Below, in pieces: positions 3,105 through 61,570 of a DNA stretch of 64,000 bases. The notes beneath the pieces were generated by a model, which saw only the letters and a list, made by a program, of their open reading frames with translations, ran no database searches and was not told the origin of the DNA. Origin of the DNA: Flavobacterium ginsengisoli (GTDB lineage Bacteria; Bacteroidota; Bacteroidia; Flavobacteriales; Flavobacteriaceae); the NCBI RefSeq assembly GCF_029625315.1, contig NZ_CP121110.1, positions 921,501 through 985,500 on the forward strand, in the 5' to 3' direction. Within the stretch, counting starts at the first letter, position 1; each line of letters starts with the position of its first letter. A program made the translations under genes and the position numbers.

Positions 3105-3582
3105 TTAGTTTTTTAATAAATCTGCCCTATGTTTTTCTGAAAGGCAAGGTTCTGCAAATTCAATAATATCTTGTGATTCGTATTCACTCAATAGATTTCT
3201 TACCAAAGAATAATCTACATCTTTGGCTATTTCTGCTTGCAAAAAAAGTTTCATTTAATCCTTCAGACAAACAATTTATTGCTTTTAATTTTTCGCGAAT
3301 AATTTCTTTATCAAAACCTTTTTCTAAAACAGCAATCTGAACAATCGAATTTCCAGAGTTTTGAATCGTTTTTCTATGCATGAAACGTTCTTCTGTTTCG
3401 TCATATTCTGCATAAAAAATATCATCAGTAGCAATTAAAGGGCCGAAAAAAGGGATATTATCCAACTTAAAAAGTCCTTTTTCTAAATCTATAATTTCTG
3501 CCCACATCGTTTCAGAAACCACTTCGTCTAGATAATCACTGTAGTATTTAAATAATATTTTCTTGTGAGTTTCTTGTTCCAT
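3105..3582 (-). pseudogene. DUF4265-like protein, frame disrupted near the C-terminus
   Basis: The uninterrupted frame gives 132 residues ending abnormally (3184-3582). It begins MEQETHKKILFKYYSDYL and has the DUF4265-like segment ETMWAEIIDLEKGLFKLDN. Removing one base at GCTTGC (3235-3240, plus strand) restores a continuation through DVDYSLVRNLLSEYES and IIEFAEPCLSEKHR to a stop at 3105, about 158 residues, matching the expected tail of the family. The start overlaps the stop of the VOC gene by 1 nt (TAATG), so they are translationally coupled. Cytoplasmic, function unknown. The break looks like a sequence error, not decay. Confidence 0.7.
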
Positions 3583-3974
3583 TATTCAATTTCGCTGATT
3601 ACAGCTTTTAAAGGTGATATTACGATTCTATAGCCATCTGGATCCTGAATCATTTTTCCATTTTCATTCCAAAACGGATTCAGTGCATGTATAACTGCAA
3701 TATTATACTTTGGTAATTTATTTACTAATTTATCGTAATCTGCAATAGTTTTAGGGTATAAAACCATTACATCATCTTCATCAAAAGTATGCTTGGCCGG
3801 TACTTCAGATTGTGTAAACTCAAAATGCCAGTCTAAGCCCGGTTTTCCTATGAAAATACCATCATAATTATTATGATTCTCAAACCCGCCCAATCGTTCA
3901 AAACCGAGTACATCTACATAAAAATTCTCAATTTTCTCTAAATCATTTGTATGTCGCGCAACCCGTAAAAACAT
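3582..3974 (-). CDS. VOC (glyoxalase/bleomycin-resistance) superfamily protein
   Basis: 130 residues starting MFLRVARHTNDLEKIENFY. It has the VOC pattern: N-terminal ARHT, FYVDVLGFERLGGF, GKPGLDWHFEFTQS, and a C-terminal QDPDGYRIVIS that supplies the usual final metal-binding region. Members are metal-dependent isomerases, dioxygenases or resistance proteins; the substrate cannot be read from the sequence. It lies 4 bp after the DinB gene and overlaps the DUF4265 gene by 1 nt, so it is in a tight operon. Confidence 0.8.
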   Translation of the reverse strand: MFLRVARHTNDLEKIENFYVDVLGFERLGGFENHNNYDGIFIGKPGLDWHFEFTQSEVPAKHTFDEDDVMVLYPKTIADYDKLVNKLPKYNIAVIHALNPFWNENGKMIQDPDGYRIVISPLKAVISEIE

Positions 3975-3978
3975 AATT

Positions 3979-4422
3979 TTATGACTTTATTTGATTAATA
4001 TGATGCTCTAAATGTTCTACATAATCGGTCATTATAAACCGTAAATCAGCTAGAGATCCATCGCCAAAATCAATTTCATACTCTAAAGCTTTTGGATCAA
4101 CTGTTTTCATCAGTCTTACAAGCTGTTTATTTATGACAAACCATAATTGCGTAAGCTCCTCAATATCCATTGTCTGATACTTATTTATATCTACTAAAGC
4201 ATCTGGATCGTAAGTTCTTCTTTGATAAGGTTTGTCAACATAATTAATTTCTGTAAAACGGACAAGATTATGGACGGCTGAATCTACCAAATGACCTATA
4301 ATTTCTTTCTTAGACCATTTTTTAGGTTTTCTTTCTTCTAAAATTTTCTGGTCTATTATTGGAAAATAATGTACATTTTCGTTCAATAATTTTTCAAATT
4401 TGAGAATAACACTTTCCATCAA
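3979..4422 (-). CDS. DinB-like four-helix protein
   Basis: 147 residues, starting MMESVILKFEKLL. The helical DinB/YfiT pattern is visible: KKWSKKEIIGHLVDSAVHNL with the first conserved His, and TDYVEHLEHHINQI with the C-terminal His pair. These three histidines usually bind a metal. DinB-like proteins are metal-dependent thiol transferases or hydrolases of unclear substrate. It follows the nucleoside phosphorylase gene by about 12 bp and precedes the VOC gene by 4 bp, which supports one transcript. Confidence 0.8.
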   Translation of the reverse strand: MMESVILKFEKLLNENVHYFPIIDQKILEERKPKKWSKKEIIGHLVDSAVHNLVRFTEINYVDKPYQRRTYDPDALVDINKYQTMDIEELTQLWFVINKQLVRLMKTVDPKALEYEIDFGDGSLADLRFIMTDYVEHLEHHINQIKS

Positions 4423-4434
4423 TTTGCCAATTAA

Positions 4435-5304: not shown

Positions 5305-5391
5305 TTTTTTTAAGTTGCTAAGGTTCTGAGATACTGAGGCTCTAAGTTTTTTTCAATGTTTCAGGTTAGTCGAATAACTTGAAACCTAAAA
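5303..5391. repeat. Intergenic inverted repeats
   Basis: This spacer holds TTGCTAAGGTTCTGAGATA (near 5315-5333) and a GTTTCAGGTTA ... TAACTTGAAACC inverted repeat (about 5359-5391). Similar words recur at 8952-9030 and 61640-61680 (first type) and at 16171-16314 (second type). Confidence 0.55.
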
Positions 5392-5395
5392 CTTT

Positions 5396-5728: not shown

Positions 5729-5838
5729 ATTTTTTTATTCTAAAAATAAATTCCAAGCATAAAGATATTTAAAAATTAAATTCCAAACCCCAAGAAAAGC
5801 TCGGAATTTGGAATTTTAATTTTAAAAATTATGTAAGT

Positions 5839-6789: not shown

Positions 6790-6945
6790 ACTTTACATTT
6801 TTTATTTTAAAGAAAAAAGGTGTCATAAGCACCTTTCGCTAACAAAGGTAGATAATATTTTAGAAAATAATCTTAAGCTCAGGCATTAAAAGCTGATTTC
6901 TGATTAAAATTAATTTTAAAAACCAATAAAATTGATGCAATTTGT

Positions 6946-6953: not shown

Positions 6954-6977
6954 AAACACTAAAAAACAAAAAATTAC

Positions 6978-8954
6978 ATGATTTTTTACCGACAAAACCT
7001 TTCTGACACTGAATTATTAGATTTATATAAAAAAATATTAAAGCCTAGATTGATTGAAGAAAAGATGCTAATCTTGATTCGTCAAGGAAAAGTTTCTAAA
7101 TGGTTTTCTGGAATAGGGCAAGAAGCTATCGCTGTTGGTGTAACGGCTGTTTTAGATCAGTCAGAATACATACTTCCAATGCACCGAAATCTTGGTGTTT
7201 TTACAACTAGAGAAGTTCCTCTTCATCGTTTGTTTTCGCAATGGCAAGGAAAGGCAAATGGTTTTACAAAAGGACGAGACAGAAGTTTCCATTTTGGAAC
7301 GCAAGAATACAATATTATAGGAATGATTTCGCATTTGGGTCCACAATTAGGAATTGCTGACGGAATCGCACTTGCAAATAAACTTCAAGACAATAAAAAA
7401 ATTACGGCTGTTTTTACGGGAGAAGGCGGAACAAGCGAAGGTGATTTTCATGAAGCATTGAATATTGTCGCGGTTTGGAAACTTCCGGTAATGTTTATTG
7501 TAGAAAATAACGGTTACGGACTTTCGACACCAACTAACGAACAATATGCTTGCGAAAACCTTGCTGATAAAGGAATTGGCTACGGAATTGAAAGCTGGAT
7601 CGTTGACGGAAATAATATTGTTGAAGTCTACAATAAATTGTCTAAACTTAAAAAAGAAATGCAGGAAGATCCACGCCCAATTTTGTTGGAGTTTAAGACT
7701 TTTAGAATGCGAGGACACGAAGAGGCAAGCGGCACAAAATATGTTCCTCAAGATTTAATGGACCAATGGGAACTTAGAGATCCTGTTACAAATTACAGAA
7801 AATATTTGACTGAAATTGGAATTCTAAATGCTGAACAAGACGAACAATTTCATGCTGAAATAAAACAAGAAATTGATGAAAATTGGGCATTGGCAAATGC
7901 TGAACCTGAAATCGAACCAACTTATAGTGGAGAATTAGATGATGTTTACAAACCATTTCAATATGAAGGATATACCCATAATTCTGATTCTACAAATATT
8001 CGTTTTATTGATGCTATTCGTAATGGTTTAGAGCAATCTATGTGGCGCCATAAAAACTTGGTTATTATGGGACAGGACATTGCTGAATATGGCGGAGCAT
8101 TTAAAATTACAGAAGGTTTTGTTGATGCTTTTGGAAAAGATCGTGTACGGAACACACCAATTTGCGAAAGTGCTGTAATTTCAACAGGAATGGGATTATC
8201 TATAAACGGATACAAAGCAATTATAGAAATGCAATTTGCCGATTTTGTTTCTACTGGATTTAACCCAATTGTGAATCTATTAGCAAAATCTCATTATCGC
8301 TGGGGCGAAAAAGCAGATGTTGTCGTTAGAATGCCTTGCGGAGGCGGAACTCAAGCTGGTCCATTCCATTCGCAAACCAATGAAGCTTGGTTTACTAAAA
8401 CTCCAGGTTTAAAAGTAGTTTATCCAGCATTTCCTTACGATGCAAAAGGTCTTTTAAATACTTCGATTAATGATCCAAATCCTGTTTTATTCTTCGAACA
8501 TAAATTATTGTACAGAAGTATTTATCAAGATGTTCCAACTGACTATTACACTATTCCTTTAGGTAAAGCTGCTTTGGTTAAAGAAGGAAGATCGGTAACG
8601 ATTATTTCATTTGGAGCCGCAGTTCATTGGGCTTTAGACACATTGGCGAAACATCCAGAAATTGATGCCGATTTAATAGATTTAAGAACTTTACAGCCTT
8701 TAGACACAGAAACAATTTTCGCTTCAGTTAAAAAAACAGGAAAAGCTATAATTTTTCAAGAAGACACACTGTTTGGTGGAATCGCAAGTGATATTTCGGC
8801 TTTAATTATGGAAAACTGCTTTGAGTATCTAGACGCTCCTGTAAAACGTGTAGCGAGTTTAGATTCACCTATTCCTTTTACTAAAGCACTAGAAGATCAG
8901 TTTTTACCAAAAAACAGATTTGAACAAGTTTTGTTAGAATTGATAAAATACTAA
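6978..8954 (+). CDS. Branched-chain 2-oxoacid dehydrogenase E1, fused alpha and beta subunits
   Basis: 658 residues. The first half is the E1 alpha domain with the thiamine diphosphate motif GEGGTSEGDFHEAL ... IVENNGYGLST near residues 145-180. The second half, from about residue 335, is the E1 beta domain (GQDIAEYGGAFKITEGF, RMPCGGGTQAGPFHSQ and a transketolase C-terminal part ending FEQVLLELIKY). It decarboxylates branched-chain 2-oxoacids and passes the acyl group to an E2 lipoyl protein, which is not in the window. Alpha-beta fusion is familiar in Bacteroidota. The gene is monocistronic, followed by an oppositely oriented oxidoreductase. Confidence 0.9.
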   Translation: MIFYRQNLSDTELLDLYKKILKPRLIEEKMLILIRQGKVSKWFSGIGQEAIAVGVTAVLDQSEYILPMHRNLGVFTTREVPLHRLFSQWQGKANGFTKGRDRSFHFGTQEYNIIGMISHLGPQLGIADGIALANKLQDNKKITAVFTGEGGTSEGDFHEALNIVAVWKLPVMFIVENNGYGLSTPTNEQYACENLADKGIGYGIESWIVDGNNIVEVYNKLSKLKKEMQEDPRPILLEFKTFRMRGHEEASGTKYVPQDLMDQWELRDPVTNYRKYLTEIGILNAEQDEQFHAEIKQEIDENWALANAEPEIEPTYSGELDDVYKPFQYEGYTHNSDSTNIRFIDAIRNGLEQSMWRHKNLVIMGQDIAEYGGAFKITEGFVDAFGKDRVRNTPICESAVISTGMGLSINGYKAIIEMQFADFVSTGFNPIVNLLAKSHYRWGEKADVVVRMPCGGGTQAGPFHSQTNEAWFTKTPGLKVVYPAFPYDAKGLLNTSINDPNPVLFFEHKLLYRSIYQDVPTDYYTIPLGKAALVKEGRSVTIISFGAAVHWALDTLAKHPEIDADLIDLRTLQPLDTETIFASVKKTGKAIIFQEDTLFGGIASDISALIMENCFEYLDAPVKRVASLDSPIPFTKALEDQFLPKNRFEQVLLELIKY

Positions 8955-9030
8955 GTTTTTGAGAGGCTGAGTTGCCAAGATACTAAGGGAAAAACTTAGA
9001 ATCATGGCAACTTAGAACCTTAGAACCTCT
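8952..9030. repeat. Imperfect inverted repeat between convergent genes
   Basis: The words GAGGCTGAGTTGCCAAGATA and TCATGGCAACTTAGAACCTT form an imperfect hairpin between the E1 stop and the oxidoreductase stop. It may act as a bidirectional terminator and resembles words at 5315-5333 and 61640-61680. Confidence 0.5.
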
Positions 9031-10001
9031 AAACAAGAACCACTAAACGTTTTCCGTCAGGAACTTCTGCATTCCACATTTTCTCAATATCTGCTAAACG
9101 AACGGTTTCAATATTTACTTTTAGTATATTTTTTGAAGCCAAGAGAAACATTTCGGGAAGTATTTCAGAAAACAACAATTTGACTTCTTCTTTTGTCCAA
9201 CTTCCTAATCCAGAACCAGATAATTGAAGATCAACACTTCGTAAAATCTGTGCAGACAATTGAATGGTATCTCCAGCCATAGAACCTACAGAAACATACC
9301 TAGTTCTATGCGTAAAATTTCCGTTTCCTTTTAAAATTGAAAGAATAAGCTCTGCTGAATGTCCCCATAAATAGTCAATTACAATATCAATTGGAGTGTT
9401 TTTATGGATTTCTCTTAGCTGAGAAATAAAAGATTCATCATTCTGTTTTAAGGATATAATTTGATCTGCACCTAATTCTAAAAGGCTTTCAAGCGCTTTT
9501 TCATTTCTTCCTGTAACAATTATCCTTTTAGCTCCGTAATGTTTTGCAATTTGAACAGCCATTTGTCCCGTAAAACCAGTGGCTCCATTTATTAAAACTG
9601 TTTCTCCAGGTTTTATTGTCGCTCTAAAACGAAGTGCCATTGCCGAACCTGCAACTGCATTTGGCATTGCCGCGGCTGTTGCATCATCAATTCCGTTTGG
9701 TAAAACTACCATTCGGTTTTTCTCTACTAAAGCTTTTTCGGCGATTGTTCCTGAGATTCCGCGAGCATAAACTCTTGTTCCATTTTCGAGAACTCCAATT
9801 GCGTCACTTCCAACAATAAATCCATTTTGATTTTCTTTTTCCGAAGAATAATGCTCTCCGCTTGCAATTCCTTTATCCAGATTTGTGATGGCTACGGCTT
9901 TTACCGAAACTAAAACTTCATTTTCATTTGATGCAATTGGTTCTTCAAATTCTGCATATTTTGGCAATTCGCCTTTTTTATAAACTACTGTCTGCTTTCA
10001 T
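9029..10001 (-). pseudogene. Zinc-type/quinone oxidoreductase (MDR superfamily), frame disrupted at the N-terminus
   Basis: The intact frame from a TTG at 9967 gives 312 residues (MPKYAEFEEPIASNENEVLV). A better start is the ATG at 10001 (MKA...), joined by removing one base at GTCTGC (9990-9995), which restores MKAAVVYKKGELPKYAEF and about 323 residues. NAD(P)-binding Rossmann motif: VLINGATGFTGQMAVQIAKHYG; GTISEKALVEKNRM-like GroES segment precedes it (GTIAEKALVEKNRM). It is a medium-chain dehydrogenase/reductase without the usual zinc ligands, probably a quinone reductase. The Crp-type regulator gene lies just upstream on the same strand. Confidence 0.75.
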
Positions 10002-27649: not shown

Positions 27650-29118
27650 TTATCCAATTTTTTTCATTGCCGTCATAGACTCTCTCAACCAAGCTCCTAC
27701 TTCTTCGATAGGGTGTTGACGAATTTCTTTATTAACAGCGATTAGTACCGCATTGTCTACTCCGTTTGAAGTTGAAAATGGTTTACCAATAATGTTAGTT
27801 TCCACTTTTTTCATGAATTCAGTCAATAATGGCTTACATGCATGATCAAATAAGTAGCATCCGTACTCAGCAGTATCAGAAATTACACGGTTCATTTCGA
27901 ATAATTTCTTTCTTGCAATTGTGTTTGCAATTAATGGCAATTCGTGTAATGACTCATAATAAGCAGACTCTTCAATGATTCCAGCCTCAGTCATTGTTTC
28001 AAAAGCTAATTCAACACCAGCTTTTACCATTGCAATCATTAATACTCCATTATCAAAATATTCTTGTTCTGAGATTGGAGCTTCTTGTGGAGCTGTTTTT
28101 TCGAAGTTAGTTTCTCCTGTTGCAGCTCTCCATTTCAATAAGTTAACATCGTCATTAGCCCAGTCGATCATCATAGTTCTAGAGAATTCTCCAGAAATGA
28201 TATCGTCTTGATGTTTTTGGAATAAAGGACGCATAATGTCTTTTAATTCTTCAGCTAATTCGTAAGCTTCAATTTTTGAAGGATTGTTTAAACGATCCAT
28301 CATATTTGTAATACCACCGTGTTTTAAAGCCTCAGTGATAGTTTCCCATCCGTATTGGATTAATTTAGAAGCGTAAGCTGCATCGATTCCTTTTTCAACC
28401 ATTTTATCGAAACATAAAATAGATCCAGTTTGCAATAAACCACAAAGAATAGTTTGCTCACCCATTAAATCTGATTTTACTTCAGCTACGAAAGATGATC
28501 TTAAAACTCCTGCTCTGTGTCCTCCAGTTGCAACAGCGTAAGCTTTTGCTTGATCTAAACCAAATCCGTTTGGATCGTTTTCTGGGTGAACTGCGATAAG
28601 AGTTGGAACTCCAAATCCTCTTTTGTACTCTTCACGTACCTCAGAACCTGGACATTTAGGAGCACACATAATAACAGTAATGTCTTTACGAATCTGCATT
28701 CCTTCTTCTACGATGTTGAATCCGTGAGAGTAAGATAAAGTAGAACCTTGTTTCATTAATGGCATAATAGCAGTTACCACAGCTGTATGTTGTTTGTCTG
28801 GTGTAAGGTTACAAACTAAATCTGCAGTTGGAATCAATTCTTCATAAGTTCCTACTTTGAAACCATTTTCAGTTGCATTTTTATAAGAAGCTCTTTTTTC
28901 TGCAATTGCATCTGCACGCAATGCATAAGAAATGTCTAAACCAGAATCTCTCATGTTTAAACCTTGATTCAAACCTTGTGCTCCACAACCAACAATTACA
29001 ACTTTTTTCCAGCCAATGCTGCAATTCCGTCTGCAAATTCTGATTGCTCCATAAATTCGCAAACTCCTAATTGTTCTAATTGTAATCTAAGTGGTAATGT
29101 ATTGAAATAATTTGCCAT
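27650..29118 (-). pseudogene. ilvC: Ketol-acid reductoisomerase (ilvC), frame disrupted near the N-terminus
   Basis: Full frame-corrected length about 489 residues, the long type II form. The true start is ATG at 29118 ([16 protein letters not shown]). The frame breaks at a run of six A on the minus strand (T6 at 29003-29008); seven would give [13 protein letters not shown], the NADPH-binding motif. Beyond that the ORF is intact, with [17 protein letters not shown] and [11 protein letters not shown]. It catalyses step two of isoleucine/valine synthesis. Last gene of the ilv operon. Confidence 0.9.
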
Positions 29119-29750: not shown

Positions 29751-31441
29751 TTAACTTAATCTAATTTCTGATACACAAGCTCCTGTTGGAATCATTGGGA
29801 AAACGTTGTTTTCTTTTTCGACTACAACTTCTAAGAAATATGAATCTTTTGAAGCCAGCATCTCAGCGACCGCTGCATCAAGATCTTCACGCTGTGTAAC
29901 TTTTTTAGATTTGATATGATATCCTTCAGCAATTGCAATGAAATTTGGATTAATCATTTTTGTAGAAGCATATCTATTATCAAAGAATAATTCCTGCCAT
30001 TGGCGAACCATTCCTAAGAATTCATTATTTAAAATAACAATCTTCACTGGAACCTGAGTTTGGAAAATAGTTCCAAGTTCCTGAATTGTCATTTGGAAAC
30101 CTCCATCACCAATAATCGCCACTACTTCACGCTCTGGTTTTCCCATTTTTGCTCCAATCGCAGCAGGCAATGCAAATCCCATAGTTCCTAAACCTCCAGA
30201 AGTAATGTTACTTTTAGTTGAATTGAATTTAGCATAACGACAAGCAAACATTTGGTGCTGACCAACATCTGAAACAATAATTGCGTCTCCTTTTGAGTGT
30301 TTGTTGATCATTTCAATAGTTTCTCCCATCGAAATTCCTTTACCGTTTGTTGGATTTAATTCTTCTTTTATTACTGAATCGTATTCAACTTTACTTAATT
30401 CTTTAAATTCATTATGCCAAGCATCGTGAGATTTTGCATCTAATAATGGTAATAAAGCAGTTAAAGATTCTTTCACATCTCCTAAAACAGCTACTTCTGT
30501 TTTCACGTTTTTATCAACCTCTGCAGGATCAATTTCGAAGTGAACTACTTTTGCCTGTTTTGCATAAGTACTTAATTTACCTGTTACACGGTCATCAAAA
30601 CGCATTCCGAAAGCAATTAAAACATCGCATTCGTTTGTTAGTAAATTTGGCGCATAATTTCCGTGCATTCCAAGCATACCAACATTTAAAGGATGATCTG
30701 TTGGTAAAGCTGATAATCCTAAAATTGTCCATGCTTGCTGGAATTCCAGATTTTTCAACCACTGCTTTAAATTCTGCTTCTGCCTGACCCAAAATAACTC
30801 CTTGTCCAAAAACAATAAACGGTTTTTTTGCACTATTGATTAAAGCTGCAGACTTCGGCAACTTTATCTAAATTTAATTTTGGAACTGGAACATAACTTC
30901 TAATTCCTGTGCATTTTTCGTAGCTAAATTCGAACTCATCAAACTGAGCATTTTTAGTAATATCAACCAATACAGGCCCTGGACGTCCAGAACGAGCAAT
31001 GTAAAATGCTTTGGCAATAATTTCAGGAATTTGAGAAGCTTCAGTTACTTGAAAATTCCATTTTGTTACCGGAGTTGAAATTCCGATAATATCTGTTTCC
31101 TGAAATGCATCAGATCCTAATAAGTGTCTTCCAACTTGACCTGTAATACAAACCAATGGAGTTGAATCAATTTGAGCATCTGCGATACCAGTTACTAAGT
31201 TTGTAGCTCCTGGCCCAGAAGTAGCAATGGCTACTCCTACTTTTCCTGTAGCTCTTGCATAACCTTGAGCTGCATGCGTTGCACCTTGTTCGTGACGAAC
31301 TAAAACGTGGTGTAACTGATCTTGAAATTTATATAATTCGTCGTAAACTGGCATTATAGCTCCACCTGGGTAACCATAAATTAAATCTACTCCTTCTGCT
31401 AATAAACATCTTATAACGGCTTCTGCCCCTGATATTTTCAT
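29751..31441 (-). pseudogene. ilvB: Acetolactate synthase large subunit (ilvB), two frame breaks
   Basis: Corrected length about 562 residues. N-terminal thiamine-diphosphate motifs [14 protein letters not shown] and [18 protein letters not shown] are in the upstream fragment (30833-31441); the downstream fragment (29751-30833) has GDGGFQMTIQELGT and NNEFLGMVRQWQELFF. Extra bases at 30848-30853 (GCAGAC for GCAGC) and 30733-30738 (GCTTGC for GCTGC) separate them, with a short third frame between. It catalyses the first common step of valine and isoleucine synthesis. Second gene of the operon after ilvD. Confidence 0.9.
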
Positions 31442-31498: not shown

Positions 31499-33173
31499 TT
31501 AATTATCGGTTACACATCCTGTTGATGCACTAGAAACCGACTTAGCGTATTTAAGTAAAACCCCTCTGTCAACTTTTAATTTCGGCTGAACCCAAGCCGC
31601 TTTTCTTGCTCGCAAATTCTTCGTCAGATATCTTCAGGTCGATTGTATTTTTCACAGCATCGATAGCAATTAAATCTCCATCTTTTACTAGTGCAATACC
31701 ACCACCGTCATATGCTTCTGGTGTAACGTGACCTACCACGAAACCGTGCGAACCGCCCGAGAATCTACCGTCTGTGATTAGTGCACAACTGCTTCCTAAT
31801 CCAGCTCCAATAATCGCAGATGTAGGCTTCAGCATTTCAGGCATTCCCGGACCACCTTTTGGCCCACAACCCCTGATGACGACTACATTACCTGGTTTAA
31901 TTTTTCCGGCTTGAAGACCTGGAATTACTTCAAATTCACCTTCAAATACAACAGCTGGTCCTTCGAAATATTCTCCTTCTTTACCGCTAATTTTTGCTAC
32001 AGCACCTTCAGAAGCTAGATTTCCGTATAATACCTGAATATTTCCTGTTGGTTTTAATGCTTTTTGAATTTCATGAATTACTTCTTGTCCGTCTTGTAAA
32101 TCTGGAGTTGAAGCTAAGTTTTCAGCCACCGTTTTTCCTGTTACAGTTAAACAGTCTCCGTGAATAAGTCCAACTTTCAATAAGTATTTCATAACTGCTG
32201 GAATACCTCCAACTTCGTGAATGTCTTCCATCATGTACTTACCACTTGGTTTCATGTCTGCCAATACTGGTGTTCTATCATTAATTGCTTGAAAATCATC
32301 TAAAGTAATAGTTATTCCAACCGAGTGAGCCATTGCGATTAAGTGCATAACAGCATTTGTAGAACCTCCTAAAACAGCCACAATTGTAATAGCATTTTCG
32401 AAAGCCTTACGAGTCATAATGTCTCTTGGCTTGATATCTTTTTCTAATAATATTTTGATTGCTTTTCCAGCTTCCAGACATTCATCTCTTTTTTCTTGGC
32501 TTAAAGCAGGGTTTGAAGAACTATAAGGCAAGCTCATTCCTAATGCTTCAATTGCAGAAGACATTGTGTTTGCAGTATACATTCCACCGCAAGCACCAGC
32601 TCCTGGACAAGCATTCTGAATAACACCTTTGAAATCTTCTGGAGTAATTTCGCCTTTTACTTTTTTTCCTAATGCTTCAAAAGCAGAAACGATGTTTAAA
32701 GATTCTCCTTTCCATTTTCCAGAATGAATAGAACCGCCATAAATCATCATAGAAGGACGATTTAATCTTCCCATTGCGATTAATGCTCCAGGCATATTTT
32801 TATCGCACCCAGGAATTGCAATAATACTATCATACCATTGTGCTCCGGCAACAGTTTCAATAGAATCTGCAATTACATCACGAGAAACTAGTGAGTAACG
32901 CATACCTTCAGTTCCGTTAGAAATACCGTCACTGACACCAATAGTATTAAAAATAAGTCCGACAAGATCTGCATCCCAAACACCTTTTTTAACATCTTTT
33001 GCTAAATCGTTCAAGTGCATGTTACAAGTGTTACCATCGTAACCCATGCTCACAATACCAACCTGTGCTTTCTTTAAATCTTCTTCAGTTAAACCAATTC
33101 CGTACAACATCGCTTGCGCCGCAGGCTGTGTTTGATCTTGTGTGATGGTCTTGCTGTACTTATTTAATTCCAT
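31499..33173 (-). pseudogene. ilvD: Dihydroxy-acid dehydratase (ilvD), frame disrupted at the C-terminus
   Basis: The intact frame gives 534 residues from [16 protein letters not shown] to a false end at 31569. Removing one base at GCTCGC (31608-31613) extends it through [20 protein letters not shown] to [12 protein letters not shown] and a stop at 31499, 557 residues, normal for the family. Fe-S ligand cysteines are in [24 protein letters not shown] and [12 protein letters not shown]. It dehydrates 2,3-dihydroxy acids in the cytoplasm. First gene of the ilv operon, directly downstream of the leader attenuator. Confidence 0.9.
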
Positions 33174-33444: not shown

Positions 33445-34563
33445 TTAAACAATTGTTGATTGCCCAATACTTACATTATCATTATTAAAATACAGCAAAT
33501 CATCTTTGCTGAAAATAAAATTAGAAACGAACTCTCCTACTTCGTTTGTTCCAAATTTTGAATCTGGTTTCAAATCAACTGTAACTACCTTGTATTCAAT
33601 TGCTTTTTCTACCGCTTTATAAATTACATGAGCTTCTTTAGTTAATCCAAAATGTTCTAACAAAAGTCTGTCGCTAAAATCGAAGCAATCGGATTAGCAA
33701 TGTTTTTTCCTTTTGCCTGCGGATATGATCCGTGAATTGGCTCAAACAAAGCGTTTTTTTCTCCTAAAGACACAGATGGCAATAAACCTATTGAACCTGT
33801 AATTACACTAGCTTCATCAGATAAAATATCTCCAAACAAGTTTTCAGTCAAAATCACATCAAACTGCTTTGGATTTAAAATCAACTGCATTCTTTGCGTT
33901 ATCCACAAATAAGAAATCAAGCTTAACATCTGAATACTCTTCGCTCACTTTCTGAACTACTTTTCTCCATAATCTCGAAGTCTCCAAAACATTTGCTTTA
34001 TCAACCATTGTAAGTTTTTTACGTCGTTTTTGTGCCGACTGAAAAGCTAAATGCGCAATTCTGGTAATTTCTTCTTCTGAATATTCACATAAATCTGAAG
34101 CATGTGTCCCTTCTTCATTAAGTGTTTTTGTACCAAAGTACGCTCCACCAGTTAATTCTCTAAAAATGGTAAAATCAGCTCCTTCAATAATTTCTCTTTT
34201 TAAAGGAGAAGATTCAATTAAGGCTTTATAAGGTTTTATAGGACGAATATTAGCAAACAATCCTAATTCTTTTCGCAGTTTTAATAATCCTTGTTCTGGA
34301 CGAACCTTTGCATTTGGGTTGTTATCGTATTTAGGATCTCCAATTGCACCAAGTAAAACTGCATCAGTGTTTAAACACAGATTTAAAGTTTGCTCCGGTA
34401 ACGGATTTCCAGTTTTATCAATAGCAACCGCTCCCATCAGCGCTTCTTCAAAAACAAATTCATGATTATACACTTCGCCAATGGCGTACAAAGCTTTCTT
34501 AGCTTGTAAAATTACTTCAGGTCCAATTCCATCTCCTGGTAAAACTGCTATTTTTAAATTCAT
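33445..34563 (-). pseudogene. leuB: 3-isopropylmalate dehydrogenase (leuB), two frame breaks
   Basis: Corrected length about 370 residues. Fragments: MNLKIAVLPGDGIGPEVI ... FLFVDNA (33859-34563), then [20 protein letters not shown] ... ANPIASIL (33657-33929), then [20 protein letters not shown] (33445-33663). Breaks lie near 33889-33897 and 33666-33674, both where GCWGC-like words are expected. It oxidises and decarboxylates 3-isopropylmalate with NAD+ in leucine synthesis. It follows leuA on the minus strand and lies just upstream of the ilv promoter. Confidence 0.88.
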
Positions 34564-43619: not shown

Positions 43620-43629
43620 TTTTAATTTG

Positions 43630-43693
43630 GTTGCTGGTTGTTGGTTGATTGTTGTTGGCTAATACGATAAACTATCAACCAACAACTAACAAC
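43630..43693. repeat. Inverted repeat in the hisA-hisF spacer
   Basis: GTTGCTGGTTGTTGGTTGAT (43630-43649) and ATCAACCAACAACTAACAAC (43674-43693) are imperfect inverted arms. Confidence 0.65.
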
Positions 43694-44418
43694 TATAAAC
43701 CAATTATATAATTCTCTAGTTGTTTCAAAGTGATTCTTCCCTCGTAAATTGCTTTTCCGATAATAGTTCCTTCACAGCCTAATTCTGCAAGTTTTGGTAA
43801 TTCGTCGAAAGTTGAAATTCCGCCAGAAGCAATTAATTTTATGCCTTTTGCTTCTGCTAAAATTTTGCTATACAAATCAAAACTTGGACCTTGAAGCATT
43901 CCATCTTTGGCAATATCTGTACAAATAACATACTGAATTCCTTTTGATTGATAATCTTGAATAAATGGAACTAAATCTTCGTTTGATTCTTCCAACCAGC
44001 CAGAAACCGCTATTTTTTCATCTTTTGCGTCAGCTCCCAAAATAATTTTTTCTGAACCATATTCTGAAATCCATTTTTCAAAAATTGCTCTGTTTTTTAC
44101 AGCAATACTTCCGCCGGTAATTTGGTTTGCACCACTTTCAAAAGCAATTCTTAAATCATCATCGGATTTTAATCCGCCTCCAAAATCAATTTTTAAGCTC
44201 GTTTGCGTTGCAATTTGTTCTAATATCTTATAGTTGACAATTTTACTCGATTTTGCACCGTCAAGATCTACTAAATGCAGGTATTCAATTCCGTGTGCTT
44301 CAAATGATTTTGCCACTTCAAGCGGATTTTCATTGTAAATTATCTTAGTATCATAATCACCTTTGGACAAACGAACGCATTTTCCTTCAATGATATCTAT
44401 GGCTGGTATTATTCTCAT
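43693..44418 (-). CDS. hisA: ProFAR isomerase
   Basis: 241 residues, TIM barrel. [20 protein letters not shown] carries the catalytic Asp8; the second catalytic Asp is in [14 protein letters not shown] (near residue 168). [14 protein letters not shown] and [13 protein letters not shown] bind the phosphate groups. It isomerises ProFAR to PRFAR in histidine synthesis. Lies between hisH and hisF. Confidence 0.93.
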
Positions 44419-45188: not shown

Positions 45189-46324
45189 TTAAAGCATTCC
45201 TTTCGTTGAAGGCAAAATCATTTTTTCGGTATCTCTTTTTACGGCTACTTTTATTGCTTTCGCGAAAGCTTTGAAGATTGCTTCGATTTTATGATGTTCG
45301 TTGATTCCTTCTGCTTTGATATTTAAGTTGGCTTTTGCACCGTCTGTGAATGATTTGAAGAAGTGATAGAACATTTCAGTTGGCATTTTTCCAACCATTT
45401 CACGTTTAAATTCGGTTTCCCAAATCAGCCAATTTCTTCCTCCAAAATCAATTGTCGCTTGCGCTAAACAATCATCCATTGGAAGACAGAAACCATAACG
45501 TTCAATTCCTAATTTATTTCCTAAAGCTTTTGCGAAAACTTCTCCTAAAGCAATTGCTGTATCTTCGATTGTATGATGTTCATCAACTTCTAAATCCCCT
45601 TTTACAAGAATCTCCAAGTCCATTTGACCGTGACGCGAGATTTGATCTAACATGTGATCAAAAAATGCAATTCGATGTCGATTTTGCTTTTTCCTGTTCC
45701 GTCAAGATTTAAATTAATATAAATATCCGTTTCGTTCGTTTTTCTTGTAATAGAAGCCGAACGCGCCTCTAATTTCAAAAACTCATAAATTTTCTTCCAA
45801 TCCATTGACTGCAAAACGATTGTTTCATCCAATTCTTCACGTTTTGAAGAAATTTCATTGCTTCCTGCGCCATCTGTATCGTTCATGAAAATCGCTTTTG
45901 CACCAAGGTTTTTCGCCAATTCAACATCCGTTAAACGATCTCCTAAAACAAAAGAATTAGTTAAATCATATTCAGGATTGTTCAAATATTTAGTAAGCAT
46001 TCCAGTTCTTGGTTTGCGTGTAGGCGCGTTTTCTTCAGGAAAAGTTCTGTCAACAAAAATTTCATCAAAAACAACTCCTTCGTTTTCAAAAGCTTTTAGA
46101 ATGAAATTTTGCGTTGGCCAAAACGTATCTTCAGGAAAACTGTCCGTTCCTAATCCGTCCTGATTGGTTACCATTGCTAATTCGTAATCTAATTCATTAG
46201 CAATTTTAGCCAAATACTGAAATGCTTTTGGATAAAATTCTAGTTTATCTAAACTGTCTAATTGGTAGTTTTCAGGTTCTAAAACAATCGTTCCGTCACG
46301 ATCGATAAAAAGTACTTTTTTCAT
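45189..46324 (-). pseudogene. hisB: Bifunctional HisB (histidinol-phosphatase/IGP dehydratase), one frame break
   Basis: Start ATG at 46324 ([19 protein letters not shown]). Corrected length about 378 residues. N-terminal HAD phosphatase with DRDGT; C-terminal imidazoleglycerol-phosphate dehydratase with [16 protein letters not shown] and [16 protein letters not shown] (metal His residues). The break is near 45672-45679 between DGTGKSKID and the dehydratase HML region: ATCG is seen where ACCGG would restore the frame. Neither a GCWGC site nor a homopolymer. Fourth gene of the operon. Confidence 0.9.
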
Positions 46325-46484
46325 GTTTTTTTGTTTTGCCACAGATTTCACAGATTAATATGATTTTTTTGCCACGAATTCACGAATTTCTCCAATTTAA
46401 TTCGTGCTAATTTGTGTAATTCGTGGCTAAAAATCACACACAGAAAGAAATCATTTTAATCCTTCTAATCTGTGGCTATATTTT
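46325..46484. repeat. Nested inverted repeats in the hisC-hisB spacer
   Basis: Outer arms GCCACAGATTT / AATCTGTGGC; inner arms GCCACGAATTCACGAATT / AATTCGTGGC. No ORF. Confidence 0.7.
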
Positions 46485-47618: not shown

Positions 47619-48904
47619 TTATTCTAAACTCTTTAATCTTAAGGTCACGGCGTTTTTATGCGCTTGCAATCCTTCAGCTTCAGCCATTCTTTCGATAGCG
47701 TTTCCAATATTCTGAATCCCTTTTTCTGATATTTTTTGGAATGTCATCGATTTCATAAAGCTGTCCAAATTTACACCGCTGTAATTCTTAGCGTAACCGT
47801 TCGTCGGCAAAGTATGATTGGTTCCAGATGCATAATCTCCAGCACTTTCTGGCGTATAATTCCCAATAAAAACAGAACCTGCATTTACGATTCCATTACA
47901 ATAGAAATCATCATATTCAGAACAAATAATAAAGTGTTCTGGTCCATATTCATTGATTAAATCTAAAGCGATTTGATCGTTTTCAACAAAAATTAGCTTT
48001 GAATTCTCAATGGCTTTTTCTGCAATTGCTTTTCGCGGAAGCACTTGTAATTGAGTCTGAACTTCTTTTTCTACTTCGTCAATTAATTTTTTTGAAGTCG
48101 AAACCAAAATTACCTGACTATCTGTTCCGTGCTCTGCTTGAGATAGTAAATCTGAAGCTACAAAAGCAGGGACTGCGCTATCATCTGCGACAATTAACAA
48201 TTCTGAAGGGCCAGCAGGCATATCGATTGCTACTCCAAACTGAGTTGCCAACTGTTTTGCTACGGTTACAAACTGATTTCCTGGTCCGAAAATTTTATAT
48301 ACTTTCGGAATAGATTGTGTGCCGAAAGTCATTCCTGCAATGGCTTGAATTCCGCCAACTTTCAAAATTTTAGTTACTCCACATAAATTCGCAGACGTAC
48401 AAAATTGCTGGATTTATTTTTCCTTTTTTATCTGGTGGCGAACACAAAACAATCTCTTTACAACCCGCAATTTCAGCCGGAACAGCAAGCATTAAAACAG
48501 TTGAAAACAATGGTGCTGTTCCTCCTGGAATATATAAACCAATTTTCTGAATTGGTCTTTTTTTCTTGCCAGCAGTTTACCCCTTCAATCGTTTCAACAG
48601 AAACACGATCTGTTTTTTGAGCGTTATGAAAATTATAAATATTGTTTTTTGCTAATTCGATCGCTTCCTTCAATTCAATCGGAATCAGACTAATTGCTTC
48701 TTCAATTTCTGCTTGAGAAACTTCATAATTGTCTAACGAAATTCCGTCAAAAATCGAAGTGTATTTCGCAACCGCTTCATCTCCTTTTCTCTGAACCTCT
48801 TTAAAAATCTCTTTTACTGTAACTTCAATATCATCAACAGTTTGTGTTGGTCTCTTTAATATTTCTAACCAGATTTCTGGTTTTGGACTGATTATTTTAT
48901 TCAT
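47619..48904 (-). pseudogene. hisD: Histidinol dehydrogenase (hisD), two frame breaks
   Basis: Corrected length about 427 residues. The N-terminal fragment (48473-48904) begins MNKIISPKPEIWLEILKRP; the downstream fragment (47619-48365) has MKVGGIQAIAGMTFGTQ, the GPAGPSELLIVAD region and the metal site in SAGDYASGTNHTLPTNGYA. Breaks are an A-run one base too long (T7 at 48558-48564) and GCAGAC (48391-48396). Oxidises histidinol to histidine, the last two steps. Second gene of the operon. Confidence 0.92.
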
Positions 48905-49032: not shown

Positions 49033-49889
49033 CTAAAGAACCATTTTCTCAATTGGGCAAACCAGAATTCCTTCTGCTCCAACTTCTTTTAGTTGATCAA
49101 TTACATCCCAGAAAGTATCTTTGTCAATTACCGAGTGAACACTGCTCCAGCCTTCCTGTGCCAATGGCAAAACGGTTAAACTTCTTAAAACTGGAAGAAT
49201 TTTTCCAACTGCATCAATTTTATCATTTGGAACGTTCATTAAGATATATTTTGAATTTCTAGCTCTTAAAACGGCTTGAATCCTGAATTTTAAAGTGTCA
49301 ATGTGTTTTTGAATTTCTGGAGAAACTTTTGGAGAAACAGCTAGAACTGCCTCACTTTTCAAAATAACTTCAACTTCTTTTAAATTGTTTTTGAATAAAG
49401 TGCTTCCGCTTGAAACAATGTCTACAATAGCGTCAGCAAGACCAATATTTGGTGCGATTTCTACAGAACCAGAAATCTGGTGAATATCAACACTTAAACC
49501 AAATTTACTGAAATATTCGTTAACTGTATTTGGATAAGAAGTAGCAATACGAAGTCCAGCTAAATCCTGAACCGAATTGTATTCGAAAGTTTTAGGAACT
49601 GCTACTGAAACTTTACATTTTGAGAAACCAAGTTTTGAACTACTTCTATTCCTTTTCCTTTTTCTACCAAAAGATTGTCGCCAACGATTGCTAAATCTAC
49701 CACTCCATCAATTAAGTATTGAGGAATATCTGAATTTCTTAGATATAAAACTTCAAGAGGAAAATTTGAAGCTTCTGCTTTTAATTGGTCGATTCCGTTA
49801 TTGATTGAAATACCGCAATCTTTAAGAATTTGGATACTGTCTTCGTTTAAACGACCTGATTTTTGAATTGCAATTTTTAAAGTACTCAT
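49033..49889 (-). pseudogene. hisG: ATP phosphoribosyltransferase (hisG), long form, one frame break
   Basis: Corrected length about 285 residues, the long HisG with a C-terminal ACT-like regulatory domain, which binds histidine. N-terminus MSTLKIAIQKSGRLNEDS, then VLYLRNSDIPQYLIDGVVDL and GDNLLVEKGKGIEVVQNL. The frame breaks at 49627-49629: two G where three are needed to continue GFSKCKVSVAVPKTF. First and committed step of histidine synthesis; first structural gene, preceded by the his attenuator. Confidence 0.92.
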
Positions 49890-52463: not shown

Positions 52464-54603
52464 ATGAATTTTTTCAAAAAACTTTCGCCGTTTTACAATC
52501 TGGCACTGCTTTATTTTGTTGTAAGTTTCACACTTAGAATTGTTTTACTTTTTCACCCAATTACTCAAAGCTCTTTTTCATTTATCGAGAGCTTAAAGAT
52601 TTTTTCGCTGGGTTTAGTTTCAGATTTTTTTGTTTTCTCGATAGCATTAGCCTTCTTATGGCTTTATCTTATTTTTATTTCAAATTCAAAATACAATAAA
52701 CCTTACGGATATATTATACTGGCAGGTTTTTTGGCGCTTTTAATTTATATAGCGTCAGGAAAAAGCATTTTTGACGAGTATGGAGGTGCTTTGCCAAAAA
52801 TCGTTTTGATTTTTGTTTCGCTCAAAACACTTTTGTTTGCGCTTTTTCTTTTCTTACCAAAGCACAGAAATAAAATTAGATACTGGCTTTTTGCATTTGT
52901 GATCTTTCTTTATGTTTTACTAATTCTTCAGAATGCAATTAGCGAATTTTTCTTCTGGAATGAATTTGGCGTAAAATACAATTTTATAGCTGTCAATTAT
53001 CTAATTTACACAAATGAAGTTATTGGAAACATCATGCAGTCTTATCCTGTAATTCCAATATTCTCAACTTTGTTTGCCATTACAGGAATTATAACCTATT
53101 TTATTATCAAGAATTCTAGAAATTATATTGATGAAATTCCAAGTTTTAGCGAAAAAATAAAAATCACAGCACTTTATGCAGTGTTATTTATTACTGCTTT
53201 AGTAGCTGTTCCTGGATTAGCCAAAACAGAAAATTCTAAAAATGTTTTTGTAAACGAATTACAATCTAACGGAATCTACAAGTTTTATTTAGCCTTCCAA
53301 AATAACAAATTGGACTATTACAAATTCTACAAAACGATTCCTAATGAGAAAGCATTTGCCATTTTAAAACAAGAATTGCCTGCTATTTCTGGAAAAAATA
53401 CACTTAGAGAAATAAAAGAAGATTCGTTAGAACAACGAAAAAATGTGGTTTTAATTACGGTTGAAAGCTTAAGTGCCGATTTCATGAAAATGTACGGAAA
53501 CGAGCAAAATATTACTCCATTTTTAGATAGTCTTGCTCAAAAAAGTTTACTTTTTACAAATGTTTATGCTTGCAGGAAACAGAACTGTACGTGGTCTTGA
53601 AGCTGTAACCTTGTGCCTTCCTCCTACAGCTGGCGAAAGTGTTGTAAAAGAGAAGACAATAAAAATAAGTTCTCAACTGGATCTATTTTTCTTCAAAAAG
53701 GCTACAATGTAAAGTTTATGTATGGTGGAGATGCTTTTTTTGACAACATGCAGGACTTTTACTCAGGAAACGGATATCAAATTGTTGACAAATCAAGCTT
53801 CGCTAAAAATGAAGTCACTTTTTCTAACGTATGGGGAGTTTGCGATGAAGATATGTACAATAAAGCTATTAAAATCATGAATGCTGAAGCAAAGGAAAAC
53901 AAACCTTTCTTTAACCATATCATGACAGTTAGCAATCACAGGCCGTTTACTTATCCAGACAATAAAATTGATATTCCTGGAAATATTAAATCTCGTGATG
54001 GTGGCGTAAAATATACTGATTATGCACTTCGTCAATTTTTTAAGCAAGCTGAGAAACAACCTTGGTATAAAAATACTGTTTTTGTAATTGTAGCCGACCA
54101 TTGTGCTTCAAGTGCAGGAAAAACAGAACTTCCATTAGACAAATATAGAATTCCAGCATTAATTTACACACCAGGTGCAAAACCTGAAAAGTTCAATAAA
54201 TTAATGTCACAAATCGATGTTATGCCAACATTATTTGGACTTCTAAATTTTGATTATCATAGTAAATTTTTTGGTTGTGATGTTCTTAAAACAGACTATC
54301 AACCTCGAGCTTTTATAGCTACTTATCAGGATTTAGGTTTAATAAAAGATAATGTTTTAACTATACTTTCTCCTAAACAACAGATACAACAGTTTCAGTT
54401 AAAACTTAACGAGAAAACTGGAATTTCTCCTGAATTTCAAATTTATTACGATGAAATTCCATTAAAATCAAAGAATCAAAGTTTAATCGAGCAAACTATT
54501 TCTTATTACCAAGTCTGCTTCCTATGTCTTGAAAGAAAAAGAATATCAGTTTAAAGAAATTGCAAATAAGAATAAAAAATTATACGCAAACGTTCGTGAC
54601 TAA
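52464..54603 (+). pseudogene. LTA-synthase-like membrane sulfatase, three frame breaks
   Basis: Corrected length about 712 residues. Five or so N-terminal membrane segments, then an extracytoplasmic sulfatase domain: VVLITVESLSADFMKMYGNE, GNRTVRGLEAVTL-like segment whose Thr is the expected nucleophile, KFMYGGDAFFDNMQDF, and IVADHCASSAGK (metal Asp-His). Breaks are GCTTGC (53568-53573), A4 for A5 (53646-53649) and GTCTGC (54513-54518). Likely transfers a phosphoglycerol or phosphoethanolamine group to an envelope glycan or lipid. Confidence 0.85.
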
Positions 54604-56985: not shown

Positions 56986-56990
56986 TGACA

Positions 56991-57956: not shown

Positions 57957-58031
57957 AATAAAAGTAATTGATATTTACTCTGCAAAGTTCTATCGTTTAT
58001 CTTAAAAACGCTAATCGTAAATTGCAATTGG

Positions 58032-58928: not shown

Positions 58929-58949
58929 TTTTTATATCTTAAAAATCAA

Positions 58950-59513
58950 TTAATCTTCTTGTATTCTTCCTCTCAAATACTCCATTATTTTAATGATTCC
59001 ATTTGTCAAACCTTGATAATAATTTCCCATTTTAAATTCTGGAATAAAATCATTTTCAATAATTTTCGAGGTGTCTTCATTTGAAAATATTTTTTCAATT
59101 CCATTTCCATTTTGAATTCTGATATTTTTATATCCTTTAGAAAATGCAATAAGAATTCCGTTATCTTTTCCTTTTTTACCAACTCCCCATGTTTTAGCGA
59201 TATGCAATGATAAAGCTTCAAAATTGTTTTCCGCCACTTTGATTGTATCAATTGTTACAATTGCGATTTCTATTGAAGTTTCCCTTTCGTATTTAGAAAT
59301 TAAACTATCTAATTTTTTTTCTTCATTATCAGATAGAATCTTTTCATAATCATTAACCCAACCTTTTTGTTTAGGCAGAGCACTCCAATAAACCTCACGA
59401 TATATTTTTACAATTTCCTGTTTTAAAGAATCACTTTGTTTTTTACTAATAGTTTGGCTAAAGGAAATATTGATTAGAAAAAATAAAAAAAGTAAAATTA
59501 AATTTCTATTCAT
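58950..59513 (-). CDS. TPM-domain protein, secreted or lipid-anchored
   Basis: 187 residues. N-terminus MNRNLILLFLFFLINISFSQ is a signal peptide. The TPM (TLP18.3, Psb32 and MOLO-1) domain follows: GWVNDYEKILSDNEEKKLD, STEIAIVTIDTI-type strand (TSIEIAIVTIDTI), HIAKTWGVGKKGKDNGILI and IRIQNGNGIEKIFSNEDTSK. In some bacteria such proteins act as phosphatases or membrane-associated assembly factors. Ends about 21 bp before the LysR gene. Confidence 0.85.
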   Translation of the reverse strand: MNRNLILLFLFFLINISFSQTISKKQSDSLKQEIVKIYREVYWSALPKQKGWVNDYEKILSDNEEKKLDSLISKYERETSIEIAIVTIDTIKVAENNFEALSLHIAKTWGVGKKGKDNGILIAFSKGYKNIRIQNGNGIEKIFSNEDTSKIIENDFIPEFKMGNYYQGLTNGIIKIMEYLRGRIQED

Positions 59514-59541
59514 TCAAAAAATATTAATTTTTAAAATTTAC

Positions 59542-61570
59542 TTAAAGCAACCCGTTATACTTTCTAACAAACCATTCTGCTGTCAGCAAAGCAAAGAATC
59601 AAAATCAATAACCAAACCCAGTCAATAATCGGGGTTTTGCTTGAGATATTTTTTTCGATTGATTTATATTCTTTGTTTTCTAAAAGTGTATTAATCAATT
59701 GATCGGCTTGATCTTCGAAGAACGCTTTTCCTCCTGTTTGTTGTGCTAATTGCTGTAATTTAATTACGTCAGGATTTACGAATTGCTTTTCGATATCAAA
59801 ATCTAAGATTTCAAAATGACTTGCGTATGAAGTATTTGAATTTAATTCTTTTACTGTAAAATTATACTTTCCTGCTGGAAGTCCTTCTAAATTAGCAGAA
59901 AAAGAATTACTTCCTTTCAGCAAATCGTAATTTTTAGTTTGTTTGGTCGCAGCATTTACAACAGTAATTGTAAGTCTGGCTTTTTCGTCAAACTCATAAT
60001 TTTTATTGAAATATTGTGCATTGATGATAATTTCTTCTCCAGAGTTATAAAAACTTTCGTGTGTAACTACCAAAGATTTTTTTGAAGCCGATGACGCTAG
60101 ATATTGAACTATTTTATCAATAAAAACATCATACTTTTCAAATGATTGATTATCAACATGACTTTGCAAACGCCACTTCCAGCTGTTTTCTCCAAGAAGA
60201 AAAGCGGTTCTTTTTCCTTGATTTTCGGCAAAAGCCAACAATGGAGCATTTGTAGAAACGTTTCGAATTTTTGACGAAAGTAAAACAGATACATTTCCGT
60301 TTGTACTTATATTTCCGAATGGATTTTGTAAAGGCGGGAAATTTTCAAAACCGATATCATCGATTGCAAACAGATTAAAGTCTGGATGGAATTCGCAAAG
60401 AAAATCTTCTCGCTGATTGCTCATTTTAAAAATCAGATTGTTCTGTTGCTGATTTAAAAAATTGAAATCGGTGTTGTTTCCTGTTATAATAAAACTATTT
60501 GTTCCTTTTAATTTATTGTTATCAAATATTGCCTTGAAAGCTGTTGTTGGCTGGTATAAAACTAAAACAGAAATATCATCTAAATTATTAATTTCGTTTG
60601 GCTTAACTAATACCACTTTACGCTGTGCATTAACTTCAATTGAACGTTTTAATGCAAGCAATATCTGGGTGGTTTATAGCTGAAACAATTGCAATAGTAG
60701 ACTTTTGATCGATAATTTCAACAGCAAAATTTTTGATGTTATTGTAACTGTTTTTCTCTTTTGCTGAGGATTGTATGCTGGCCTTATAAATTTGTAATCC
60801 AATTTTATCTGCTGGCAATAATAGATTTAAAGAAGCTGTTTTTTTTGATGGCGAGAAAGAAAGTTTCTCTTTTGCTACAACAGTATTTCCTTGCGAAATA
60901 GTAAATTCTGCATTGGCAGTTTTGTCCCCAGCATATTGTAAAAAAACTTCGACGGGAAATTTATTTTTATGAAAAGCGTATTTATTTACGTTGAGCTGAT
61001 TGATTTTTAAATCGAAAAAAGTGGTTGTATCTCCCACAACCAAAGGATAAACTTTATTGACAGGATCGAATCTATAAACATAGTCGTTTCCTGTAGTCTG
61101 ATTTCCGTCTGTAATAATTACAGTTGGAAAAATCAGGTTTTTGTTGATGCTTTTTAAATTCTTTGCAACTTCGTCTAAATTGGTTTGATTTCCTTTAAAA
61201 TCAAATTTGTCTGAAGTTTTAAAATCATTGTCAAATTGATAAGTTTGAATATCAAATTTTTCTTTTAAAGCAGGATTTGAAACCAGTTTTTGGTATAATT
61301 CAACTGCTTTTTTATCTGATTTTAGTGCCACAATAGAACTCGAATTATCTACCACAACGGCTAAAGGCGTTTTGGTAATTTCGAGAGAATTTTTAGAAAT
61401 AATCGGATTTATCAATAAGACCAACAACCCGAAGATGGCCAAAAAACGTAAAAAAGCCAAAAGTATTATCACATTGGATTTACTTTTGGCTTTAAAAAAT
61501 ATTGAAAATACGATAAACCACCAGCAATTACTAAAGAAAGCAATAATAAAAGAATCGTGTTTGTCGTCAT
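59542..61570 (-). pseudogene. Large VWA-like membrane protein, three frame breaks
   Basis: Corrected length about 675 residues. Start ATG at 61570 (MTTNTILLLLLSLVIAGG). Two N-terminal membrane segments, then a von-Willebrand-type A-like region with TPLAVVVDNSSSIVALKS (metal-site DxSxS). After that come long beta-rich parts and a C-terminal membrane segment (DWVWLLILILCF). Breaks are A6 (61494-61499), GCAAGC (60654-60659) and GCTGTCAGC (59579-59587). Resembles Bacteroidota VWA-type membrane proteins (Bat-like). Function unknown. Confidence 0.75.

Follow-up and report, generated by a model that had tools for sequence, protein, structure and literature searches.

Interrupted genes and altered GCWGC words

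The window considered here, a 64,000-nucleotide stretch of the 5.41-Mb single-contig genome of Flavobacterium ginsengisoli (GCF_029625315.1), carries eleven genes, among them those for histidinol dehydrogenase, ketol-acid reductoisomerase and a DUF4265 protein, whose reading frames are interrupted by small insertions or deletions (indels) concentrated at the word GCAGC/GCTGC (hereafter GCWGC). We compared it with Flavobacterium sp. IB48, a strain of the same species (contig NZ_JAEFCA010000002.1) that is 98.7% identical to this genome over 21.6 kb; as IB48 is another strain, the differences from it include some true variation. The IB48 assembly, which has SPAdes-style contig names, is likely built from short reads and the present one from nanopore reads, a platform that fits the homopolymers of this genome, which are mostly one base short (51 of 77). 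Estimated completeness is 95.5% for this genome against 100% for IB48, the latter value being that of G104, a genome classed in the same species and taken to be IB48 because contig number and coordinates agree.

Over the 63,865 of 64,000 window bases that align to IB48, there are 49 indel events, of which 24 lie in homopolymers, 13 at GCWGC, one at CCGG and 11 elsewhere. Eighteen frame-breaking indels fall in 11 IB48 open reading frames (ORFs) of at least 100 amino acids, with 12 at GCWGC, five in homopolymers and one at CCGG. An earlier examination of the window letters by themselves (the sequence-only reading) had arrived at eleven genes, about 18 indels and about twelve GCWGC sites, figures that the IB48 comparison reproduces. 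Each of the 12 positions it listed is a GCWGC word in IB48 with an indel here, 11 of them within 3 bases of where it had placed them and the remaining one, given as 59579, 12 bases from the actual word at 59591. The window contains the full mapped length of 52 IB48 ORFs, and two of the 11 broken ones are not among these because one end of each lies outside the alignment block. The IB48 sequence has 64 GCWGC words over the window, of which 25 are intact here, 26 are substituted and 13 contain an indel (12 of +1 and one of −1). The effect had been described as partial, which is right in that unbroken words exist but understates it, with 39 of the 64 words altered. The share of homopolymers among the frame breaks (5 of 18) and the presence of CCGG as a second, weaker error word go beyond that description, as does the excess of substitutions over indels documented below.

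The same comparison was made over two blocks of 400 kb each, block 1 (positions 794001-1194000 of this genome) and block 2 (3180001-3580000), the latter retrieved once the motif was already fixed and hence serving as a replication set. Alignments below 95% identity or 1,000 bases, as well as inverted or overlapping ones, were dropped, as were sites at most 8 bases from an alignment end, leaving 575,558 columns from the 800,000 bases per strain. Block 1 has 302 IB48 GCWGC sites (59 with an indel, 120 substituted, 123 intact) and block 2 has 456 (78, 159 and 219, respectively), such that 416 of the 758 sites are altered and 342 are intact; the 279 substituted sites outnumber the 137 with an indel (122 of them +1) by about 2:1. 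Of the 192 small indels in block 1, 56 are at GCWGC, with 1.0 expected. The concentration of indels at this word is seen in both blocks.

GCAGC is the most altered of the 512 pentamers (412 of 758, or 54%, by a stricter count) and is also first in indel rate (17%), and among the 506 pentamers represented by 100 sites or more the median altered is 7.8% and the runner-up to GCAGC reaches 22%. Indel rates are 0 to 0.5% at the twelve pentamers that differ from it by one mismatch and lie outside GCNGC, and similarly low at the control words: 2 of 375 for GGCC (0.5%), 2 of 620 for GCGC (0.3%), 1 of 354 for CCWGG (0.3%) and 1 of 1,359 for GATC (0.1%). In the reverse direction, with the GCWGC words of this genome as the starting point, IB48 has an indel at 4 of 383. 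A third genome of another species (G006), with 86.8% identity to IB48 and 223,495 columns after alignments below 80% identity or 500 bases were dropped, served as a further control, and here GCWGC indels amount to 0 of 225 sites with IB48 as the reference and 2 of 251 with G006 as the reference. Across the whole genome, the count of GCAGCWW is 1,173 here against 3,412 in IB48, with GCGACWW shifted in the opposite direction (1,805 against 981), and the reversed control words are nearly equal in the two strains (875 against 930 and 1,779 against 1,742). Among 28 of 121 Flavobacterium genomes, picked by eye, the ratio of GCGACWW to GCAGCWW peaks in this genome (1.54), followed by G050 (1.27), in which the control word is even higher, and IB48 stands at 0.29.

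The affected features of the window are collected in Table 1. Two neighbouring 551-amino-acid ORFs in the window (37787-39442 and 39601-41256) each match the other's IB48 counterpart at about 80% DNA identity and represent a tandem gene duplication. Indels and mismatches against IB48 also cluster in short runs at 8938-8997 and 43620-43694, where intergenic or gene-terminal sequence has apparently diverged, as opposed to carrying isolated errors.

Table 1. Interrupted genes and a further GCWGC indel in the window (window coordinates; names in quotation marks are those of the sequence-only reading; lengths are of the intact IB48 proteins in amino acids)
Feature	Coordinates	Strand	Breaks (near)	IB48 length	Pfam and remarks
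DUF4265 gene	3105..3582	-	GCWGC 3235-3237	158	PF14085
Zinc-binding-dehydrogenase-domain oxidoreductase	9029..10001	-	GCWGC 9990	323	PF00107
GCWGC-site indel	27423				Outside called ORFs; absent from the list of the sequence-only reading
Ketol-acid reductoisomerase gene	27650..29118	-	homopolymer 29002, not GCWGC	489	PF07991, PF01450
Thiamine-pyrophosphate enzyme ("ilvB")	29751..31441	-	GCWGC 30733, 30848	562	PF02775, PF00205, PF02776
Dehydratase ("ilvD"-like)	31499..33173	-	GCWGC 31608	557	
Isopropylmalate/isocitrate dehydrogenase family ("leuB")	33445..34563	-	GCWGC 33667, 33892	372	PF00180
Imidazoleglycerol-phosphate dehydratase gene	45189..46351	-	CCGG 45672	387	PF00475
Histidinol dehydrogenase	47619..48904	-	GCWGC 48391; homopolymer 48558	435	PF00815; 5′ end outside the alignment block, 48904 being the upper coordinate of the window ORF
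ATP phosphoribosyltransferase (HisG) gene	49632..49889	-	homopolymer 49632	285	PF01634, PF08029; upper end (49889) alone mapped
"Sulfatase" gene	52464..54603	+	GCWGC 53568, 54513; homopolymer 53645	712	
"VWA" gene	59542..61570	-	GCWGC 59591, 60654; homopolymer 61493	675	Product with no Pfam family at E 0.001

Form of the changes and their dependence on flanking bases

The commonest change at GCWGC is a swap that appears as GCAGC to GCGAC on one strand (50 of 341 sites) and as GCTGC to GTCGC on the other (82 of 417). With 132 cases, this double change outnumbers the single changes to GCGGC/GCCGC (54) and to GCAAC/GTTGC (26), on which ground we rejected deamination as the cause of the GCWGC substitutions. 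Indels at the word are found at 133 of 729 coding and 4 of 29 non-coding sites, such that coding sequence is not spared. Homopolymer indels, by contrast, are strongly underrepresented in genes, with 54 over 512 kb of coding and 117 over 63 kb of non-coding sequence (base composition uncorrected). A logistic model on 12 flanking bases, trained on one block and tested on the other, predicts whether a site is altered with an area under the curve (AUC) of 0.82 and 0.78 (the best of 500 shuffles reaching 0.58 and 0.59), and likewise predicts the GCGAC outcome on the held-out block (AUC 0.81 and 0.83). A signal that is read several bases at a time would yield such a dependence on flanks. Because coding sites are not spared and the flanks predict the alteration, we conclude that the GCWGC changes are most probably basecalling errors and not mutations. 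The proposal of a motif-dependent basecalling error, plausibly arising from modification, had been made from the window alone, and it is further supported by the replication in block 2 and by the G006 control.

Two attempts to draw more from the substitutions were abandoned: the natural C-to-T signal at GCWGC is swamped by the errors, and we make no claim from it on the methylated position, and G006 is too diverged (86.8%) for a clear mutation footprint. Inspection by eye, with G+C not controlled, also showed no evident depletion of GCWGC in genomes bearing the candidate enzyme described below.

Two cytosine methyltransferases and the origin of the errors

Searches with six DNA-modification families (PF00145, PF01555, PF02086, PF02384, PF07669 and DndC) recovered two PF00145 methyltransferases in this genome, in agreement with the expectation from the window that the strain would have a methyltransferase for this word. 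PF01555 and PF02086 have no match in this genome; neither does DndC (phosphorothioation), a weak absence given that the control genomes also have none above the cut-off. The weak matches to PF02384 and PF07669 belong to PrmC-like, TrmN-like and AprA-like proteins, none of which is a DNA methyltransferase, and a 549-amino-acid protein with a PF02384 match, considered as a third methyltransferase, was rejected as Pfam shows it to be an AprA-like protein. By the measure of these six families, the genome is predicted to encode two dedicated DNA methyltransferases, both of the 5-cytosine type. IB48 displays PF02384 and PF01555 methyltransferase matches that are lacking here (C22:490574, C33:181038, C33:223639 and C35:24023), and therefore the strains differ in their restriction systems.

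The first of the two, enzyme A (3188603, strand +), is directly followed by a PF09561 HpaII endonuclease (314.5 bits in this genome and 347.2 in IB48; cut-off 25). The HpaII word is CCGG, and the weaker error at that word (indels at 15 of 305 sites, all one base short) is consistent with the HpaII-type system of enzyme A. Further, among 64 contexts compared between the strains, the inner C of CCGG has the highest rate of C-to-T change in one direction (40 of 554) and the second highest in the other (22 of 540), which is likely a mutational trace of methylation and fits CCGG bearing 5-methylcytosine (5mC) at that position (C5mCGG). In this assembly even the gene for enzyme A has its frame broken, at a GCWGC word that precedes the catalytic domain (about 270 bases into slice 1100-2500 of the HpaII-type locus, outside the window); the IB48 copy is intact. 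At this locus (L134:2478-3629 in this genome and L133:2478-3563 in IB48), the methyltransferase genes are near identical and the endonucleases 31% identical, with the divergence beginning close to where the methyltransferase gene ends, and one of the two endonuclease alleles is apparently a replacement.

The second, enzyme B (4007468-4008451, strand -), matches PF00145 over residues 6-313 with 285.4 bits (cut-off 22) and TIGR00675 with 303.9, and is adjoined by a homologue of the Vsr repair nuclease (PF03852, 101.7 bits, cut-off 27; TIGR00632, 145.8, cut-off 97.85). The 3.9-kb locus, inspected by eye apart from the profile matches of the enzyme and Vsr, has Vsr next to the enzyme and no evident restriction gene. 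Relatives with at least 66% identity are found in 17 of the 121 Flavobacterium genomes, including this one and IB48. In all 12 Flavobacterium loci fetched, these two strains included, Vsr adjoins the methyltransferase (in three, seen partly, at the end of the locus), and the two constitute a stable pair across related species. E. coli Vsr acts at words with T-W-G, and a deaminated GCWGC would contain such a word. The closest solved structure to enzyme B is M.HhaI (residues 9-311, E 3.1e-56), which reads GCGC and in which the recognition domain precedes the C-terminal motifs; the stretch before these motifs aligns poorly with enzyme B. The names of its relatives state no specificity among the 120 listed of 7,991 protein matches, and among the 12 listed of 212 phage relatives (all below 60% identity) there is one hpaIIM and none naming GCWGC. 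Because enzyme A is taken by the HpaII-type system, we assign GCWGC to enzyme B, which is the best candidate by elimination among the six families searched, and the predicted methyltransferase would accordingly be this apparently solitary, Vsr-linked enzyme.

We posit that the errors very probably arise from methylation of GCWGC by an apparently solitary 5-cytosine enzyme, the mark being misread in native single-molecule reads by a caller blind to it. The strain would methylate the word on both strands, with the first cytosine as the most likely target by analogy with published GCWGC enzymes, and the enzyme responsible would be the methyltransferase beside Vsr. The assembly would derive from native DNA sequenced as single molecules, most plausibly on a nanopore platform, with a caller and a polisher ignorant of the mark. 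The changed signal would then lead the consensus to misread about half of the GCWGC sites, often as a swap of the two bases after GC (GCAGC to GCGAC) or as an extra base, the latter breaking the reading frame. The HpaII-type methyltransferase would cause the one-base-short error at CCGG and homopolymer indels would make up much of the remainder.

Several points weigh against this explanation. The mark and the platform are deduced from a comparison of assemblies rather than from reads or signal, the enzyme was paired with the word by elimination rather than by likeness to an enzyme already shown to act on GCWGC, and the non-coding side of the coding comparison comprises 29 sites. The flanks predict an indel, as opposed to everything else, weakly (AUC 0.67 and 0.69, with shuffles up to 0.62 and 0.63), and the median pentamer alteration of 8% against IB48 reflects some true strain variation. 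Isolated GCSGC words also have indels above the level of the control words (7 of 233, six of them +1); the error word may be slightly wider than GCWGC, as for M.BatI (see below), or some GCSGC sites may be GCWGC in this strain. Finally, in Listeria the errors at the same word are reported as mismatches, with indels not the cause, unlike here (PMC10687267).

It could alternatively be that the changes are real, with the marked word acting as a hot spot for mutation through 5mC deamination or error-prone Vsr repair in a genome that is truly decaying. Both strains have enzyme B and Vsr, true C-to-T change at CCGG seems raised, and Ala-to-Val (71) and Ala-to-Thr (56) dominate the protein changes at GCWGC, as deamination would give. 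We nonetheless consider this extremely improbable: the commonest change is double rather than a single step, deamination does not yield indels, coding sites are not spared, and IB48, with the same enzymes, shows next to nothing in the reverse comparison. A decaying genome would also have lost core respiratory genes, as SucA, SucB, NuoF and NuoL all read as broken among the 20 named of the 90 broken ORFs listed, and the loss of all four in an aerobe is implausible. Still less credence, indeed almost none, is due to ordinary uncorrected long-read noise or chance without a special word; homopolymer-type events are the largest class of indels in the window, yet the excess at GCWGC over expectation in block 1 and the separation of GCAGC from all other pentamers speak against it.

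An intrinsic weakness of the caller at GCWGC, unrelated to modification, would share the dependence on motif and flanks, which fits any caller defect, and the homopolymer errors of the same assembly are of that kind. However, ordinary nanopore assemblies are not known for a general failure at GCWGC, and CCGG, the second word with errors, is the one expected of the other methyltransferase system encoded here. Moreover, nanopore errors at GCAGC/GCTGC in four Listeria strains were reportedly largely removed by whole-genome amplification, which strips marks (PMC10687267). This makes a mere caller defect very unlikely. That the modification is real and laid down by another enzyme, or is of another kind, is unlikely to a lesser degree: the search covered six families and the absence of DndC is weak, but the other families gave no DNA methyltransferase and the remaining PF00145 enzyme is taken by the HpaII-type system. 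There is also a slight chance, distinctly below that of another enzyme, that the mark is not plain 5mC but a larger or additionally modified cytosine derived from what the Vsr-linked enzyme produces; if so, it would explain why more than half of the GCWGC sites are misread, as against the few indels at CCGG beside a standard 5mC system. The plainer and more likely reason for this gap is that the training of callers covers 5mC in CpG and not in GCWGC.

Consequences and known systems

If methylation of GCWGC is indeed being misread, most of the broken genes examined are probably intact in reality, and a public single-contig genome is probably unreliable at one common word. Extrapolation from the two blocks gives about 7,100 GCWGC sites in the genome, about 3,900 of them altered and about 1,300 with indels, figures that include some true variation. 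Indels at GCWGC give 96 of the 450 ORFs contained entirely in the aligned blocks the look of broken genes, a number that rises to 131 when indels of every kind are counted, and codons touching GCWGC, which are 1,493 of 170,701, account for 188 of the 1,284 amino-acid differences. Anyone counting pseudogenes, testing for selection or typing strains from such a sequence would be led astray, with a false Ala-to-Val and Ala-to-Thr signature that mimics deamination. Conversely, errors of this kind allow a methylation motif to be read from one assembly and one relative, and here they point to a methyltransferase-Vsr pair common to related flavobacteria, the specificity of which is now directly testable.

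None of the papers listed in a search on Flavobacterium and GCWGC concerns Flavobacterium methylation, judged by titles and the opening parts of abstracts. Enzymes for this word are known elsewhere, and a strain of Bacillus amyloliquefaciens is likewise recorded with GCWGC (PMC8565308). In Bacteroidota, M.Pin25611FIII of Prevotella intermedia is likewise a 5mC enzyme for GCWGC with no proven endonuclease of its own; bisulfite data place its mark on the first C (G5mCWGC), and it is listed with a controller gene, with no mention of Vsr (PMC5608340). M.BatI similarly methylates the first C of GCWGC on both strands but additionally marks GCSGC on one strand; it is small, encoded by a prophage and atypical in its motif I (PMC8936443). 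Fnu4HI is reportedly blocked when even one strand of its site is methylated (PMC8936443), and BisI reportedly cuts Gm5CNGC (PMC4926085). The likeness of enzyme B to these two is one of description. In Caulobacter, the solitary C5 methyltransferase ScmA comparably shares its genome with a Vsr homologue, VsrA, that is proposed to stabilise it; however, its word is YGCCGGCR and scmA and vsrA are unlinked, unlike the neighbouring genes here (PMC12907096).

As for the errors themselves, methylation-linked nanopore errors are reported at other words in Klebsiella (PMC11610573). The closest parallel is Listeria monocytogenes ST87, which shares the word GCAGC/GCTGC, systematic errors in the consensus at the scale of thousands per genome and a lineage-specific methyltransferase system (PMC10687267). 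It differs in that mismatches dominate there, whereas here indels also occur and many genes read as broken, and in that its system is called mza, the present candidate being an apparently solitary C5 enzyme with Vsr (PMC10687267). The kind of artefact is already known from GCAGC in Listeria, and the present case is a new and severe one.

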